NCBI GenBank assembly: GCA_001028815.1
Contig: LDJB01000001.1
Location: 577,634 to 641,633, forward strand
Length of the DNA stretch: 64,000 nt
DNA from: Peptococcaceae bacterium 1109
Lineage (GTDB): Bacteria; Bacillota; Limnochordia; Darwinibacteriales; Darwinibacteriaceae
Direction: 5' to 3'
In this document: piece by piece, positions 9,819-61,384 of the stretch
How positions within the stretch are numbered: position 1 is the first letter of the stretch
Layout of the letters: each line of letters begins with the position of its first letter
The notes under the pieces: generated by a model
Told to the model about the DNA's origin: nothing
The model's database searches: none
The model's input: the letters and a program-made list of their open reading frames with translations, nothing else
Made by a program: the position numbers and the translations under genes

Positions 9819-10349
9819 TTATTGGTATGCCCGGCCTCGCTCTAAAGCTTGCATATTAAGGGGGATAAGGTGATGGTGCCGTTGGGACAGGACTCTCTCC
9901 AGGGAACGGCTGATGCTCTCTGGAGATACCACTGGAGAGGCCTTGAGGAATGCTCCTAAGGCAACCATGTTAGCTATACGGCTATTCCCCAGCTCATCGG
10001 CAACGGCAGTAGCGGGGATGCCAATGGCCGTTATATCTGACCGCTCTGGCGCCCGGTCCACCAACGTGGTGTTGTAGACCAAGATTCCCCCTGGCTTGAC
10101 AGCAGGCTCAAAGCGGTCAAGGGACGGCCTATTCATCACGATTACAGCATCAGGCTCACTCACGATGGGAGAACCGATTTCTCCTGCACTGATCACAACG
10201 GAACAGTTACAGGTCCCCCCGCGCTGCTCTGGCCCATAAGAGGGGTACCACGAGACTTCCTTCCCTTCCAGCATTCCCGCATTAGCTAGGAGCTGACCCA
10301 TTACGAGTACTCCTTGGCCTCCAAATCCAGCAATGATAATCTCAGTCAT
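9819..10349 (-). CDS. vorC: 2-oxoacid:ferredoxin oxidoreductase, gamma subunit (VorC-type)
   Basis: 176-residue gamma domain of pyruvate/2-oxoacid ferredoxin oxidoreductases, with the typical opening [16 protein letters not shown] and the [14 protein letters not shown] segment (about 39-52). In this family the gamma domain completes the alpha-beta-gamma-delta complex that oxidatively decarboxylates 2-oxoacids to acyl-CoA and reduces ferredoxin. Its start overlaps the beta-subunit gene by eight bases, and GGAGG stands nine bases before the ATG. Substrate choice (branched-chain versus 2-oxoglutarate) is inferred from the ptb-buk context. Confidence 0.88.
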
Positions 10350-11103
10350 GCGCGGCTTCCTCCTTGCGGGCGCTATCCTTGTACACGCCCAGGGGGTAGT
10401 AAGGCACCATGTTATCCCGCATCCAGTCCAGGGCCTCTTGGGGAGTCATCCCCCAGTTTACAGAGCAAGTTGAGAGCACTTCGACTAAAGCAAAGCCCCT
10501 GCCCTCAAGCTGTGTCTGGAAGGCCTTCTTGATGGCGCGGCCCGCTTGCCGTACGTGCTTGGGATCGTGAGTAGAAACCCGCTCGATGTAGGCAGCTCCA
10601 TCTAAAGTGGCCAAGAGTTCGCTAACCCGGATGGGGTAGCCGTTAGCTTCGATAGAGCGGCCCTGAGGAGTTGTAGTGGTTTTCTGGCCCAAGAGAGTTG
10701 TGGGCGCCATCTGCCCGCTGGTCATGCCATAGATGGCATTGTTGATGAACACCACGGTGATGTTCTCACCCCGGGCAGCAGCATGAACAATTTCCGCCAT
10801 GCCTATGGAAGCTAAGTCTCCATCACCTTGATAGGTAAACACAATGCGATCGGGGAGCACCCGCTTTATTCCCGTTGCCACTGCAGGGGCCCGGCCGTGG
10901 GCCGCTTGCTGCATATCGCAGTTGAAATAGTCGTAGGCAAACACCGAACACCCTACGCTGGCCACGCCAATGGCTGATTCGCGAACACCCAGATCATCTA
11001 TGGCTTCCGCCACCAGGCGGTGAATGATTCCATGGGTACACCCAGGGCAGTAGTGCATCTGGACATCGGTGAGGCTTTCTGGACGCTGAAAAACCTGCTT
11101 CAC
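10342..11103 (-). CDS. vorA: 2-oxoacid:ferredoxin oxidoreductase, beta subunit (TPP-binding, VorA-type)
   Basis: 253-residue thiamine-pyrophosphate subunit. It has the CPGC pair (Cys19, Cys22) found at the start of many VOR/KOR beta subunits, the TPP/Mg motif [13 protein letters not shown] (about 88-100) and the downstream [18 protein letters not shown] loop. The start is GTG at 11103, overlapping the alpha-subunit stop by four bases, with GGGGGTGA six bases before it. It acts in the cytoplasm with the alpha, gamma and ferredoxin-like subunits encoded next to it. Confidence 0.9.
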
Positions 11104-12155
11104 TGGCCTTCACCCCCTAAGAGAATATCCTTGATCTTCACCAGTACTTCCCGGGGAGTGGGAACCATCCCCCCAAGGCGGTTATGGAAATGAACTGTCC
11201 CCTGCCCGTTAACCGCGAGGCGCACATCTTCCACCAGTTGGCCCATGCTCATCTCCACCACAAGGAACTCCTTCCCGTGGTGCCTCTCAAAGGGCTCAGA
11301 GGGGAAGGGCCATAGGGAAATGGGCCTGATTAGGCCAACTTTAAGGCCTTCTGCTCGCGCCATGTCAACCGCTGAGCGGGCTACCCGGGCTGATGTGCCA
11401 TACGCGGCCAACAACAGGTCCGCATCCTCTGTTTTGTACTCCTGCCAGCGGGTTTCAGATTGGGCAATGCGGCTGTATTTATCTGCCAGGGCGTAGTTGC
11501 GCCTTTCAAGGGATTCAGGGACAATGTCCAAGGTGTTTACAGTATTGGGGCGCCTCCCCCGGGCACCTGTGGTTGCCCAAGGCTTTTCTACGGCTAGGGG
11601 TTCCTTTTGGGAAAACTTCACCGGCTCCATCATCTGACCTAGGAGGCCGTCCGCAAGAATCATGACAGGGTTGCGCCACTTGTCGGCTAGATCAAAGGCC
11701 TCAAAGGTTAAGTCAGCCATCTCCTGCACTGAAGCGGGGGCTAAGACTATCAGCCGGTAATCGCCGTGCCCTCCGCCCTTCACTGCTTGGAAGTAGTCTC
11801 CTTGGCCGGGGTGGATTCCTCCGAGACCGGGCCCGCAGCGCATCACGTTCACAATTACACAGGGGAGCTCTGCTGCCGCGATGTAGGATATCCCTTCCAT
11901 TTTAAGGCTCAGGCCCGGGCTGGATGAGGATGTCATAACCCGGACTCCGCAACCTGCAGCACCGTAGACCATGTTTATGGCAGAGACTTCGCTTTCTGCC
12001 TGGAGGTATACACCGCCCCGCTCAGGGAGGTTCTGTGCCATATAGCTGGGCACTTCGTTTTGGGGTGTGATGGGGTAACCATAAAAGGCGCGGCAGCCGG
12101 CTCTTATGGCCGCTTCTGCCAGGGCCTCATTACCTTTCATTAAAACCTTTGCCAT
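11100..12155 (-). CDS. vorB: 2-oxoacid:ferredoxin oxidoreductase, alpha subunit (VorB-type)
   Basis: 351 residues covering the pyrimidine-binding domain and domain II of the oxidoreductase. The family signature [20 protein letters not shown] (about 19-38) and the [18 protein letters not shown] segment (about 74-91) are clear. The (2-oxoacid) substrate pocket cannot be read reliably by eye; 2-oxoisovalerate is preferred because ptb and buk are in the same operon. The gene lies 24 bases after the ferredoxin subunit and is followed by beta and gamma, the usual four-subunit order. Confidence 0.9.
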
Positions 12156-12179
12156 GGGTCATCTCCTCTCCCGCTTCCG

Positions 12180-12395
12180 CTATGATGCCCGTTCTACGGT
12201 AATCACCACATCGGGACACATGATTGCGCATAAGGTGCACCCAGTACATTTCTCAGGCACAGCAGCCTCTACGGGGTGGAACCCCCTGGAGTTAATCCGC
12301 TCCGAAATGCGCAGTACGCCAAAGGGGCAGGCATTTACACACAGCCTGCATTCTTTGCAGCGCTCAACCTCGATTAATACACGGCCTTTGGGCAT
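12180..12395 (-). CDS. 2x[4Fe-4S] ferredoxin-like delta subunit
   Basis: 71-residue protein with two complete CxxCxxCxxxCP clusters: Cys13, 16, 19, 23 and Cys50, 53, 56, 60. It would pass electrons from the TPP subunit to free ferredoxin. It is the separate delta subunit of the 2-oxoacid:ferredoxin oxidoreductase encoded just downstream. GAGGAGG precedes the ATG at 12395 by a normal distance. Position between buk and vorB ties the acyl-phosphate enzymes to the oxidoreductase in one transcript. Confidence 0.92.
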   Translation of the reverse strand: MPKGRVLIEVERCKECRLCVNACPFGVLRISERINSRGFHPVEAAVPEKCTGCTLCAIMCPDVVITVERAS

Positions 12396-12407
12396 GAAAC
12401 CACCTCC

Positions 12408-13481
12408 TCAAACCCTTTCATAGTGGCGGGGTTTTTCCAGCCCGCGCAGCACCCGGAGGGCTCCTTGGGCTAGAGCTTCAAGCTCGTTTTCGCCGGGAAG
12501 GACAATTACGGGGCCTAGATAGCTGATGTACTCTTCGATAATCGACGTGAGGCGTTTCGAATAGGCCATGCCGCCCGTCAACACCACAGCATCTACATCC
12601 CCGTGGAGCACTGCACTCGCCCGGCCAATCTCCTTGCAGACCTGGAGGGCCATGGCGCGGAAAACCACTTCTGCCTCGTGCCCGCCCGCCTCAATCTGCC
12701 CTTCCACTTCCCTAAGGTCATTGGTGCCAAGGTGGTCTACGAGCCCTCCCCGGCCCACAAAGTGCTTCAGTAAGCTTTCTGGGGCTTCCCCGATGCTAAA
12801 GAAATAGTGGATGAGTGCTGTCGTTGGCAAGCTGCCTGTCCTTTCCGGAGAAAAGGGCCCCTCTCCATGTAAGGCGTTGTTCACATCGACCACATGCCCA
12901 TAGCGGTGTGCACCCACGGAGATGCCGCCTCCCAGATGGACCACGATGAGTTTCAAGGCGGCGTAGGGTTTGCCCAACTGGTCCGCTGCTCGCCTGGCCA
13001 TGGCTTTGTGGTTCAGGGCGTGGAAGATGCTGATCCGGTTGATCTTCGGATGGCCGCTCACCCGGGCAACAGGCTGAAGTTCATCCACCACCACCGGGTC
13101 CACGATGTAGCAGGGAATACCCAGCTGTTTCCCGAGGCTAAACCCGATTAACCCACCCAAGTTGCTCGCGTGCTTGCCGTAGCGCCCGCTCCGCAGATCC
13201 TCGGTCATGTCCTCATTCACCATGTAGACGCCCCCTGGGATGGGCCTTAGCAGCCCGCCTCGGCACACCACTGCGGTAATGCTGTGGAGGTTCACGCCGA
13301 TTTCGGCCAGCCACTCTAGGAGGGCTTCTTTGCGGAAATCCAGTTGATCAACGATGTCCCCGAACTGGGCAAGGGACTGGGCGGAATGGTTGATTGCTGT
13401 AGAACGGTACTCGTCCTCGCCGTCATAGACAGCCAGTTTGGTGCTGGTTGACCCAGGGTTAATTACCAACAGCCTTTCCAA
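12408..13481 (-). CDS. buk: Butyrate kinase
   Basis: Acetokinase-family (ASKHA fold) kinase of 357 residues that makes ATP and butyrate or a branched-chain acid from the acyl-phosphate. All expected motifs are intact: the phosphate-1 loop INPGSTSTKLAV (7-18), CRGG near 73-76, the phosphate-2 loop VVHLGGGISVGAH, GPFSPERTGSLP with the catalytic arginine, and the adenosine motif VVLTGGMAYS. The start is TTG at 13481, eight bases from GGAGG. It follows ptb directly. Context with a VOR-type oxidoreductase suggests isobutyryl- or isovaleryl-phosphate as well as butyryl-phosphate. Confidence 0.95.
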   Translation of the reverse strand: MERLLVINPGSTSTKLAVYDGEDEYRSTAINHSAQSLAQFGDIVDQLDFRKEALLEWLAEIGVNLHSITAVVCRGGLLRPIPGGVYMVNEDMTEDLRSGRYGKHASNLGGLIGFSLGKQLGIPCYIVDPVVVDELQPVARVSGHPKINRISIFHALNHKAMARRAADQLGKPYAALKLIVVHLGGGISVGAHRYGHVVDVNNALHGEGPFSPERTGSLPTTALIHYFFSIGEAPESLLKHFVGRGGLVDHLGTNDLREVEGQIEAGGHEAEVVFRAMALQVCKEIGRASAVLHGDVDAVVLTGGMAYSKRLTSIIEEYISYLGPVIVLPGENELEALAQGALRVLRGLEKPRHYERV

Positions 13482-49141: not shown

Positions 49142-49843
49142 CTACAAAAAGCTGGACAACAGTGATCGCACCACCAGGTGCCACCCGTCCACCAAGACAA
49201 AAAGGAGGATTTTAAAGGGTAAGGAGATCATGACCGGCGGCAGCATCAGCATACCCATGGCCATAAGCGTACTAGCCACGATCATGTCGATCACTAAGAA
49301 AGGCACGAAGATCACGAAACCTAGTTGAAAAGCGGTTTTAAGCTCAGAAATGACGAAGGCAGGGATTACGGTGAAGGTATCTACGTCGGCACGTGTAGCC
49401 GGCCGTTCCTCTCCCCTTAGGTCGACAAACATTTCTAGGTCCTTTTCTCGGGTGTGGGTAAACATAAACTCCCGAATCGGTTCCAAGCCTGCGGAAAGGG
49501 CTTCTTCGAAGGCAAGCTCACCGTTAAGATAGGGCACCACTGCTTCGCTGTAGACCGCACTAAATGTGGGTGCCATAATAAAGGCTGTGAGAAACAGGGC
49601 CAAACCGATCAGAACCTGATTGGGAGGTACCTGGTTGGTTCCCAAGGCGTTTCTCAGCAGAGAAAGGACGATCACTGTCCGGGTAAAAGACGTGAGCAGA
49701 GTCAGGATGGCAGGGGCCAGGGTCAAAATGGTGAGCACCAGGAGAATCTGTAAGCTGGCTGCTACATCTCCTGGGCTCTCCGCAAGCCCTACTCCGATAT
49801 CGATACGTGGAATTGGAATGGTTGTCTGCAGAAAAAAAGTCAC
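49142..49843 (-). CDS. fliP: Flagellar export protein FliP
   Basis: 233 residues with the family's LTLAPAILTLLTSFTRTVIV (about 38-57), RNALGTNQVPPNQVLIGLAL and C-terminal LMLPPVMISLPFKILLFVL. Core of the FliPQR gate in the membrane. GTG start at 49843, overlapping the fliO stop by four bases. The N-terminal segment before the first helix is short; a cleaved signal peptide is not obvious. Confidence 0.95.
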   Translation of the reverse strand: MTFFLQTTIPIPRIDIGVGLAESPGDVAASLQILLVLTILTLAPAILTLLTSFTRTVIVLSLLRNALGTNQVPPNQVLIGLALFLTAFIMAPTFSAVYSEAVVPYLNGELAFEEALSAGLEPIREFMFTHTREKDLEMFVDLRGEERPATRADVDTFTVIPAFVISELKTAFQLGFVIFVPFLVIDMIVASTLMAMGMLMLPPVMISLPFKILLFVLVDGWHLVVRSLLSSFL

Positions 49844-50121
49844 TCTGGTTCCTCTCCGTTCGTAGACTCCGCTGCAGCAGTGTCGATGAGATTAATGGCT
49901 TGTGGGCCTACACCGAGGAGGTAGCGGCGCCCCTCCCACTCCACAACATATAGAGCCCTGTTTGTCCCTAAGGGAAGCACCTCATGAACTTGGATGCTTT
50001 TCCCACGCACCTGATGCTTGCCGTACCAACGGGTGATGAAGTACACAGCAGGTGCTGTAACTGCCAGTACCAGAGCGACGCGCACCAAGCCGTAAACAAG
50101 TTCCAGGTCCAATGCCTCCAC
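49840..50121 (-). CDS. fliO: Flagellar biosynthesis protein FliO
   Basis: 93 residues: one N-terminal membrane helix (about 8-28) followed by a small soluble domain with IQVHEVLPLGTNRALYVVEW, typical of the FliO/FliZ family. FliO helps assemble FliP. It is shorter than many homologues but complete. It starts four bases after the switch-protein gene ends and overlaps fliP. Confidence 0.88.
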   Translation of the reverse strand: MEALDLELVYGLVRVALVLAVTAPAVYFITRWYGKHQVRGKSIQVHEVLPLGTNRALYVVEWEGRRYLLGVGPQAINLIDTAAAESTNGEEPE

Positions 50122-50125
50122 CCGC

Positions 50126-51082
50126 CTAAGTCTCCGTATTGTTCAGCAAGCGATCCTTTTCTGGTACGATGTCCAGAATGCGGATTCCGAAATTGTCGTT
50201 AACTACTGTAACCTCTGCCTTGGCAATGGAACGACCGCTCACCAAGACGTCCACTGGGTCCCCTGCTGGTTTCTCCAGGGCAAAGGTTGTGTTAGGCTCC
50301 AAGTCCATGAGCTCTTCCAGAGTCATGATGGTTTTACCCAGTTCCACCACAACTTCTAGGCTCAGGTCTTCCACCAGATCGAGGGGGAGATCCCCTTTTG
50401 CCTGGTCCGGGCTTCGCAGCTCTGTGAAGATTGCAGTTTTCACCGGAGGCGGCTGTGAGATGACCGCTTTTCCAGCCCGCTGCGGGCTGGGATGTGCGCC
50501 CTTGTAAGCCGGAGGGTTCTGCATCGGAGCTTGGATTAGCCTGGTAAGGTTTGCTTTGGGTATGAAGAAGCTCACCTCCATGCAGTCCTTGCTCCAGCAC
50601 ACTGCGTGGCGCACTAAGACACTGCCCTTTTCCACGGACAGCTGACTGAGCTGGACACGGCTCATCCGGATAGGATCACTTAGCTTATAGGGCATAAAAA
50701 CACCGTTTATGGCTGAAAGGCTGTCCGCCAGGTACCGGGCCCAACCCTCAAAAATGGTCTGGACCGCCCACTTCATGCTTCCGCCTAGCTTCTCTCCAAA
50801 GAGCTGTGCCTCTGATGCCCCCAGCACGGCGAAAAGCGTACCGCTGCCCATGGAAACAGGCATTACCACGACGTCTTCCATGAAGAGGATATCGAGGGGC
50901 TGCTGCACCTGCTCCACATACGGGCCCTCAATCTGCACCCGCTGGGGCATCAGGGCCTGGAAGTGGTTCGCGGCGCCGTCAAGGGCTGCGGCGAAGGCTG
51001 CGGTAAGGTGTGTATGTGGTTCCGCTGACCCTCCCTTACTTAGGAGAGCATTGATTTCCGCTTGAGATAAAATGGATTCCAT
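50126..51082 (-). CDS. Flagellar motor switch protein, FliN/FliY type with FliM/FliY N-terminal peptide
   Basis: 318 residues. It opens ESILSQAEINALLSKG, the CheY-binding style peptide shared by FliM and FliY. The middle (about 25-180) is a diverged FliM/CheC-like domain; I do not find the CheC phosphatase signature (ExxN). After a proline-rich linker (about 188-215) comes a clear FliN/SpoA domain (DLSLEVVVELGKTIMTLEEL to IRILDIV). In B. subtilis separate fliM and fliY lie here between fliL and fliO; this is the only gene in that place. FliY is my best label, but it may also serve in place of FliM. Confidence 0.8.
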   Translation of the reverse strand: MESILSQAEINALLSKGGSAEPHTHLTAAFAAALDGAANHFQALMPQRVQIEGPYVEQVQQPLDILFMEDVVVMPVSMGSGTLFAVLGASEAQLFGEKLGGSMKWAVQTIFEGWARYLADSLSAINGVFMPYKLSDPIRMSRVQLSQLSVEKGSVLVRHAVCWSKDCMEVSFFIPKANLTRLIQAPMQNPPAYKGAHPSPQRAGKAVISQPPPVKTAIFTELRSPDQAKGDLPLDLVEDLSLEVVVELGKTIMTLEELMDLEPNTTFALEKPAGDPVDVLVSGRSIAKAEVTVVNDNFGIRILDIVPEKDRLLNNTET

Positions 51083-51106: not shown

Positions 51107-51571
51107 TCATTGAATTACTAAGTCGACGAAATACACATCAACCACGTGGCCTTGGAGCAGTAGGCTGTTGATCTTCTCGATAATCTGGGTCCTCAGGATA
51201 TCTACCCCATCAGTAGTGCGCAGCTCTTCAGCGGTGGTGAGGCGCAGGAGGCTGATGATCAGATCCCGGATTTGCGGTGTCCGCCTCTCTAGCTCTGTCA
51301 CCACATTTGTGGATGACCCTTCCACCATGATCTCAGTCCGGATAAAGCGAGGCTGCATCCCAGCGGTCATGAGGTTCACTGTAAATTCCCCCGCTTCGAA
51401 AATAGGGCCGATGTCTCGCTTCTGTACATTGGCAGCCTCCGTGGCCTCCATGCCCGTATTACCCCGCTGGAAAATGAGGTACGTTGAATAGGCACTGCCT
51501 GCGGTGGCGATGATCACTAACGCAATGATTCCAATGATGACCTTAAAGTCCACTTCTACCTTTCTCGCCAT
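51107..51571 (-). CDS. fliL: Flagellar basal body-associated protein FliL
   Basis: About 154 residues: one membrane helix near the N-terminus (VIIGIIALVIIATAGSAYST) and a periplasmic-side stomatin-like domain ending RTQIIEKINSLLLQGHVVDV then YFVDLVIQ. FliL rings support the stator units. MARKVEVDF at 51571 is the likely start; an ATG at 51583 is also open. It follows motB directly. Confidence 0.92.
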   Translation of the reverse strand: MARKVEVDFKVIIGIIALVIIATAGSAYSTYLIFQRGNTGMEATEAANVQKRDIGPIFEAGEFTVNLMTAGMQPRFIRTEIMVEGSSTNVVTELERRTPQIRDLIISLLRLTTAEELRTTDGVDILRTQIIEKINSLLLQGHVVDVYFVDLVIQ

Positions 51572-51585
51572 AGCGCTCACCATCC

Positions 51586-60390: not shown

Positions 60391-61384
60391 CTATCTCATC
60401 CTCCCCACCACGGGAGATAATGATCTCTCCCGCCTCCTCTAAGCGGCGAATGGTCGAGACAATCTTCTGTTGGGCTTCTTCAATATCCCGAAGGCGCACA
60501 GGGCCCATAAACTCGATATCTTCTTTGAGCATATCTGCTGCCCGCTTTGACATGTTCTTGTAGATTCGGCCGGCCACCTCTTCGCTCGCGGTTTTCAGAG
60601 CCAAAGCCAGATCCCGCGTGTCAATTTCACGGAGCACCTTTTGAATGGCCCTGTCATCTAAAGTGATGATATCCTCAAAGACGAACATCCGTTTCAGGAT
60701 GGCCTCTGCCAGTTCAGGATCATCTTCTTCTAAAGCATCCAGGATTGTCTTTTCCGTGGTCCGGTCAACCAGAGAGAGGATTTCCACGGCGGAGTCAATC
60801 CCGCCGGCCATGGTATAGTCCTCAATTGCGAATGCAGACAGCCGCTGCTCTAAGGTGTCTTCGATTTCTTTCAAGATCTCAGGAGTGGTCCGATCGAGCA
60901 TGGCAATGCGCTTGGCCACATCTACCTGAGTCTCAGGGGGCAGCGCGGAAAGAATCATGCCTGCCTGTTCAGGATTGAGGTAGGCTAGGATCAAGGCGAT
61001 AGTCTGGGGATGTTCATTTTGAATGAAGTTGAGCAGCTGATTGGGGTCAGTCTTGCGCGCGAAGCTGAAGGGGCGGGCCTTCAGCGTGGAGACTAGCCGG
61101 GCGAGAATGGCTTCGGCCCTGGCTGCCCCGAGGGCTTTCTCCAACAGCTCTCGGGCATAGTCAATGCCCCCCTGCTCCACATATTCCCGGGCAATGTACA
61201 TATCGTAGAACTCGCTGAATACCTCATCCCGAATGCCTGAACGGATGTTGCCCGTGTTAGCAATTTCTCTAGTTAGAATCTCGATCTCCTCATCCCGGAG
61301 GTGACGGTATATTTGAGCCGAGAGCTCAGGGCCGAGGGATACTAACAACACCGCTGCCTTCTGTTTGCCGTCCATTTCCACCAT
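60383..61384 (-). CDS. fliG: Flagellar motor switch protein FliG
   Basis: 333 residues. All three domains are visible, including the EHPQTIALILAYLNPEQAG segment (about 115-133) and the charged C-terminal torque helix (LDDRAIQKVLREIDTRDLAL, about 242-261). It couples stator and rotor. The ATG at 61384 (MVEMDGKQKAAVLL) has GGGGGAG upstream; the longer frame has no homology. Confidence 0.95.
   Translation of the reverse strand: MVEMDGKQKAAVLLVSLGPELSAQIYRHLRDEEIEILTREIANTGNIRSGIRDEVFSEFYDMYIAREYVEQGGIDYARELLEKALGAARAEAILARLVSTLKARPFSFARKTDPNQLLNFIQNEHPQTIALILAYLNPEQAGMILSALPPETQVDVAKRIAMLDRTTPEILKEIEDTLEQRLSAFAIEDYTMAGGIDSAVEILSLVDRTTEKTILDALEEDDPELAEAILKRMFVFEDIITLDDRAIQKVLREIDTRDLALALKTASEEVAGRIYKNMSKRAADMLKEDIEFMGPVRLRDIEEAQQKIVSTIRRLEEAGEIIISRGGEDEIVV

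Follow-up and report, generated by a model that had tools for sequence, protein, structure and literature searches.

The window, that is, the whole stretch of 64,000 nucleotides from Peptococcaceae bacterium 1109 that was analysed (C1:577634-641633), carries a tightly packed series of flagellar genes in the order motA-motB-fliL-X-fliO-fliP-fliQ-fliR. In this series X is a single open reading frame (50126-51082, reverse strand) encoding a FliN-type SpoA protein of FliY architecture with 318 amino acids. Its upstream neighbour fliL (51107-51583, reverse strand) is separated from it by 24 bases and its downstream neighbour fliO (49840-50121, reverse strand) by 4 bases. An initial annotation of this DNA had seen one gene directly between fliL and fliO, as the reading frames confirm; its fliL (51107-51571) is the right gene with the wrong start, 51571 being the second ATG.

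In 30 loci, of which 29 belong to relatives and one is that of the window, fliO lies next to X in all 30 and fliL does so in 24; the remaining six comprise five in which the contig ends on the fliL side and one (L027) without fliL. Since the same neighbours recur over 30 loci, the combination of slot and gene is not due to chance. Within the order, a slot protein was found in 33 of 36 genomes, most of the genomes compared being draft MAGs (the exceptions are G009, G013 and G022).

X begins with a head (residues 1-17; 51032-51082, reverse strand), a peptide of the CheY-P-binding type that presumably binds CheY-P. The N-terminal LSQAEINALL peptide read earlier is there, as ILSQAEINALL at residues 4-14. 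There follow a middle domain with the predicted fold of FliM, FliY and CheC (residues 19-188; 50519-51028, reverse strand), a linker that is mostly of low confidence in the structural model and has a P-V-x-x-A-x-F segment before the SpoA domain (residues 189-232; 50387-50518, reverse strand), and a FliN-type SpoA domain (residues 233-312; 50147-50386, reverse strand). The last was already recognized as a FliN domain and is matched by Pfam FliMN_C at residues 236-306 (E 1.3e-20). The head, the CheC/FliM-fold middle (predicted) and the FliN-type SpoA domain together give X the architecture of FliY.

The head pattern is found in the window's X and in 22 of the 23 full-length rows overall, an argument for X being more than a bare FliN. 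Its description as FliM-style did not stand, because the head is not special to FliM: it occurs in all 23 che-type FliM when a widened head pattern is used (0/23 with the narrower one) and also in 20 of 23 che-cluster FliY. The FliY of the window's own genome is among the three misses; another of them, L063, has a variant head outside the pattern. FliY shows no head in the window's genome, in G001 and in G005; of these three genomes, the start of X was read in the window's, where the head is present. None of the six slot proteins of families f10 and f14 has a head.

That there is no fliM, as the initial annotation had it, is true for the window alone. A search of the whole genome for FliM, which had been recommended there, found a separate, normal fliM, so that of the options offered the one placing fliM elsewhere turned out to be right. 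The gene (C1:568198-569199, 333 amino acids, GGPG loop present; Pfam FliM match at C1:568510-569079, E 1.8e-51) adjoins a gene for FliY (C1:567197-568228, 343 amino acids) with two CheC matches (E 1.1e-14 and 5.4e-13), both on the contig of the window about 8.4 kb to the left of its first base. They are part of a cluster in the order cheW-fliM-fliY-cheA-cheY-cheC-cheD-cheB-cheR, in which matches to Pfam CheW support CheW and CheA, a match to Pfam CheC (E 2.0e-6) supports CheC, and CheY, CheD, CheB and CheR were named by eye. Annotators could easily be misled here, since a slot without fliM does not imply a genome without it. Across the class a FliM match was obtained in 65 of 72 genomes.

At E values up to 0.1 the genome has three FliMN_C matches, namely FliM, FliY and X, and a single FliG_C match, the C-terminal domain of FliG at 60416-60736 of the window (C1:638049-638369, reverse strand). 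With only one FliG_C match the C-ring is probably single, and three FliMN_C matches beside it point to three SpoA proteins for one rotor. The motor therefore has one switch part more than usual, not one fewer.

By phmmer, the SpoA domain of X matches FliN chains at E values of about 1e-17 and Salmonella FliM at 0.3; it is 38-46% identical to FliN from Salmonella and Thermotoga maritima over the aligned part. In a tree of 101 SpoA domains FliM is split off at 100/96 and X lies on the FliN/FliY side, so that by tree and by phmmer its SpoA domain is not of the FliM type. The tree, which has few columns (105) and a bootstrap that had not settled, divides X into two groups, 16 rows at 98/91 and 12 rows at 93/86, that are not joined, and does not place X inside the slot FliY. 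With NCBIfam fliN (TIGR02480) X narrowly misses the cut-off, scoring 82.4 bits where 84.05 are required; with the NCBIfam FliY model NF005995 it scores 93 bits, below the cut-off of 218, with residues 199-312 as the best stretch. With 318 amino acids and a middle domain that is folded in the model, X does not have the bare-FliN form, which is short and without a FliM-like domain.

An AlphaFold2 model made from 25 aligned X rows gives residues 19-188 at a pLDDT of about 95 and residues 191-249 at less than 50; the linker and the SpoA part are poorly placed, and the pTM of the whole model is 0.57. The predicted middle domain matches FliM from Helicobacter pylori (4gc8, Z 17.5), FliY from T. maritima (4hyn, Z 16.9) and CheC (1xkr, Z 16.0); a Foldseek comparison agrees with this fold. 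As a means of deciding between a FliM and a FliY ancestry the fold comparison was discarded, the Z values being tied. The possibility raised earlier that the middle is an ordinary CheC/FliY domain is borne out as far as the fold goes, which is that of CheC, FliM and FliY, and fails at the level of Pfam: at E values of up to 10, neither CheC nor FliM (PF02154) matched the X of the window or any of the 25 X proteins.

The GGxG loop, which we take to be the contact of FliM with FliG, is present in 23 of 23 che FliM and in none of the middle domains of 23 full-length X rows, the window's included. The two CheC motifs are found in 22 of 23 che FliY and are both absent from the X of the window, where the earlier reading of a middle domain without the CheC ExxN signature is upheld for the first 190 residues. 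A bare E-x-x-N does occur within the middle domain in L016, L031, L034, L035 and L038, five of the 23 full-length X, which weakens the case for a clean loss of the CheC motif in X; a stricter CheC-like pattern matches one of the 23. In the X proteins of family f3 (L031, L034, L035 and L038) the E-x-x-N is located at residues 117-118 in the second long helix, where the X of the window has none; it may be due to chance or a remnant of one CheC motif.

When the profile of the X middle domain was aligned by hhalign (with an X set that excluded L036 and partial rows and an f10 set that excluded L077), the slot FliY of other families gave a weak match with a probability of 34.5 (pairwise E 7e-5, 181 columns), the che-type FliY one of 1.9 and both FliM sets 0.1-0.2. 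The failure to match FliM says little, because the slot FliY set of f11 aligned to che FliM likewise reaches 0.1. By profile the middle domain of X appears weakly to be nearest to slot FliY.

With the X proteins of seven relatives selected from its own family, the X of the window shares 65-75% of the residues in the head, 19-25% of those in the middle domain and 46-52% of those in the SpoA domain. In the same genomes the values for FliM are 62-66% (middle) and 58-67% (SpoA), and those for FliY 62-68% (middle) and 74-80% (SpoA). The middle domain of X is fast-evolving. Between the window and G001 of the same genus, residues 103-190 of X differ with a dN of 0.27 and a dS of 1.4, the latter near saturation, and the middle domain of FliM with a dN of 0.07 and a dS of 2.1, also near saturation. 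By these substitution rates, residues 103-190 of X are still under purifying selection.

In genus g4 of the window's family the slot gene directly after fliL starts near the linker and has the FliN part only (L182); this bare form is one record, L104, with a contig of equal length, being apparently the same. Genus g15 of family f5 has bare-FliN open frames of 149-153 amino acids in two genomes (L041 and L089), and its family mate g13 has kept the middle domain without the head (L036). Slot frames of 115-163 amino acids are found in families f8 and f9. Head and middle domain thus appear to have been lost on two or more occasions from slot genes whose relatives retain the middle domain, a loss that the FliN part does not show. 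With bare FliN domains in the slot of two separate lineages, it is the FliN part that persists.

Among the best 30 FliM loci of the class the order is fliL-fliM-fliY in 8 (families f7, f11 and f12) and cheW-fliM-fliY in 22; family f15 likewise has the slot type of FliM. In a FliM tree built from a selection of 26 non-slot, 9 slot and 16 reference rows by a quick method with SH-aLRT only, the 9 slot rows (97) and the 26 non-slot rows (98) each lie on one side of a branch; three strongly diverged FliM-like slot rows (f6, f13 and f16) had been left out. Three of the non-slot rows (one from f8, two from f13) have neither cheW nor cheA in the stretch examined. FliM in the class, as grouped by sequence, is of two kinds, a slot type and a mostly che-cluster type. 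Where the non-slot FliM exists, the slot contains X in f1, f3, f4 and genus g13 of f5, another single protein in f10 and f14, a bare FliN in f8, f9 and genus g15 of f5, and a decayed FliM-like protein together with a FliY/FliN-like protein in f6, f13 and f16; in f2 the slot was not found.

Slot pairs of a strongly diverged FliM-like and a FliY/FliN-like protein were seen at L083:2593-4967, L084:1420-3713 and L078/L079, in genomes that have a second FliM-FliY pair; they are possibly intermediate stages or second rotor sets. The slot protein of f10 (L072-L076) has an N-terminal part of about 230 amino acids and no head; this part gave no clear match to the profiles of X, FliM and FliY (best probability 1.0).

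From this distribution it looks as if the slot pair was displaced by a second pair and its FliY-like member kept as a FliN. A second fliM-fliY pair, whether from duplication or from transfer, would have made the ancestral slot pair redundant, whereupon the slot fliM would have been lost and the slot fliY would have shrunk to a FliN-like protein. A search by regular expression found the CheC-like ExxN pattern in none of nine slot FliY of f7, f11, f12 and f15 (L042-L049 and L085), so that the phosphatase motif may already have been lost before X arose. As the SpoA tree neither puts X within slot FliY nor joins its two groups, X is no more than likely to descend from slot FliY, or even to have arisen only once.

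Taken as a whole, the best explanation, to which we assign a probability of about 0.77, is that X is the third SpoA protein of one C-ring, does the job of FliN and was formerly the FliY of the slot. We infer a FliY demoted to a FliN-like part of ring and export docking. X would fill the FliN role in the lower ring, where its SpoA domain would bind both its own kind and those of FliM and FliY and would offer a docking site to FliH and the export ATPase. The hold on FliG would fall to FliM and the dephosphorylation of CheY-P to FliY. In X the middle domain would be a non-catalytic remnant or a spacer, and the conserved head would add a CheY-P tether. For the sublineage of the window we consider, tentatively and with more doubt than belief, that in this Limnochordia ring of FliM, phosphatase-type FliY and pseudo-FliY the tether has moved from FliY to X, because FliY is headless in the three genomes named above and the X of the window has a head. 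If true, one protein of the ring would tether CheY-P and another would dephosphorylate it.

A catalytically dead FliY that mainly holds CheY-P by its head, with ring-building as a secondary task, would agree with the head being the best-conserved part of X (65-75%, vs. 46-52% for SpoA) and with its retention in the window's genome, where FliY is headless. We think this improbable, however, since the slot proteins of f8, of f9 and, in part, of f5 and g4 are headless, and since FliM keeps a head of its own in all 23 che-type rows. Still less probable, and indeed quite unlikely, is that X is a diverged paralogue of FliM, in that the slot FliM rather than the slot FliY was kept. The tied Z values would allow it and diverged FliM-like proteins do occupy the slot in f6, f13 and f16, but X has a SpoA domain of the FliN/FliY type and GGxG is missing from all 23 full-length middle domains; the hhalign probabilities of 0.1-0.2 with the FliM sets point the same way, weakly, as the slot FliY set of f11 likewise failed to match che FliM.

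The other option of the initial annotation was that X is the sole FliM/FliN-type protein and covers both switch roles in a reduced C-ring. It had in its favour that a single such gene lies between fliL and fliO, and the lack of a FliM match in four of the 33 order members with a slot protein (G017, G019, G034 and G035) could be added. For the genome of the window it is refuted by the FliM at C1:568198-569199; the genome also has a FliY with CheC motifs, and a single FliG was found in it. A FliM role for X is also contradicted by the lack of GGxG and by its grouping with FliN/FliY and not with FliM. As to the four genomes, the contig of G017 begins just before FliY and that of G034 stops inside CheA, which is where the missing genes would lie; G019 has no CheA match and G035 neither a FliG nor a CheW match, and in these two the absence of FliM is likely a gap in the assembly. 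We give a reduced ring hardly any credence.

C-rings with three SpoA proteins are already known, and this combination in its genomic setting would be a new form of them. Of FliN and FliY, the excerpts of PMC6946799 state that most bacteria have one or the other, Leptospira and the Epsilonproteobacteria being exceptions. The FliY of Campylobacter jejuni is described in parts of PMC6946799 and PMC8809382 as acting as a classical FliN-like protein. For H. pylori FliY, parts of PMC8809382 report that the C-terminal domain alone restores C-ring, export apparatus, hook and filament, and they contrast it with B. subtilis FliY, which has the CheY-binding motif as its trait. As far as these excerpts go, the ring proposed here resembles those of Helicobacter/Campylobacter and Leptospira in having three SpoA proteins, one of them of FliY-like architecture without phosphatase sites. 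It differs in that there FliY is partnered by FliM and FliN, whereas the partners of X are FliM and a CheC-motif FliY; in that X stands alone in the fliL-fliO slot with FliM and FliY in a che cluster; and, compared with the H. pylori protein as the excerpts depict it, in that X keeps its head.

With the FliY of Bacillus and Thermotoga, X shares the head, the predicted CheC/FliM-fold middle and the FliN-type SpoA domain. Unlike these, the X of the window lacks the CheC motif and is added beside a motif-bearing FliY. The gene for FliY of B. subtilis occupies the same operon slot as X. The likeness to FliN of Salmonella and T. maritima lies in the identity of the SpoA domains given above and in the bare FliN form of some relatives of X; the difference is about 230 extra N-terminal residues in X. 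In SctQ proteins (YscQ/SpaO) a C-terminal SpoA domain follows a divergent N-terminal part, as in X. X is in a flagellar operon, however, and scores 54.4 bits with the NCBIfam model TIGR02551, below the family cut-off of 100.8. An injectisome SctQ was rejected because of this operon context and because the three FliMN_C matches of the genome are FliM, FliY and X.

Among titles and abstract openings, no published report of such an arrangement was found, and none on Limnochorda together with FliM. X looks like a further exception to the exclusivity of FliN and FliY, in a class of Bacillota, in which a motif-bearing FliY is combined with a protein that is FliN-like but built as a FliY. Canonical, two-set, long-X and bare-FliN states coexist in the class, and these four states could show a ring gaining a part by displacement rather than by simple duplication.

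Outside the window, genes resembling spoVAC, spoVAD and spoVAE by eye (L002:11278-11727, 10256-11263 and 9883-10392; C1 at about 570-572 kb) lie directly beside the cheW-fliM-fliY cluster. An extra protein of the CheC/CheX type (G000:C4:173604-173711; Pfam CheC, E 3.7e-9) is encoded away from the che cluster. Genes similar by eye to those of ExbB, ExbD and TonB are found at L002:15238-17306, and a coiled-coil protein of the SLH type is encoded in their vicinity (11846-13168); the bacterium may be a sporulating member of the Bacillota with outer-membrane features.
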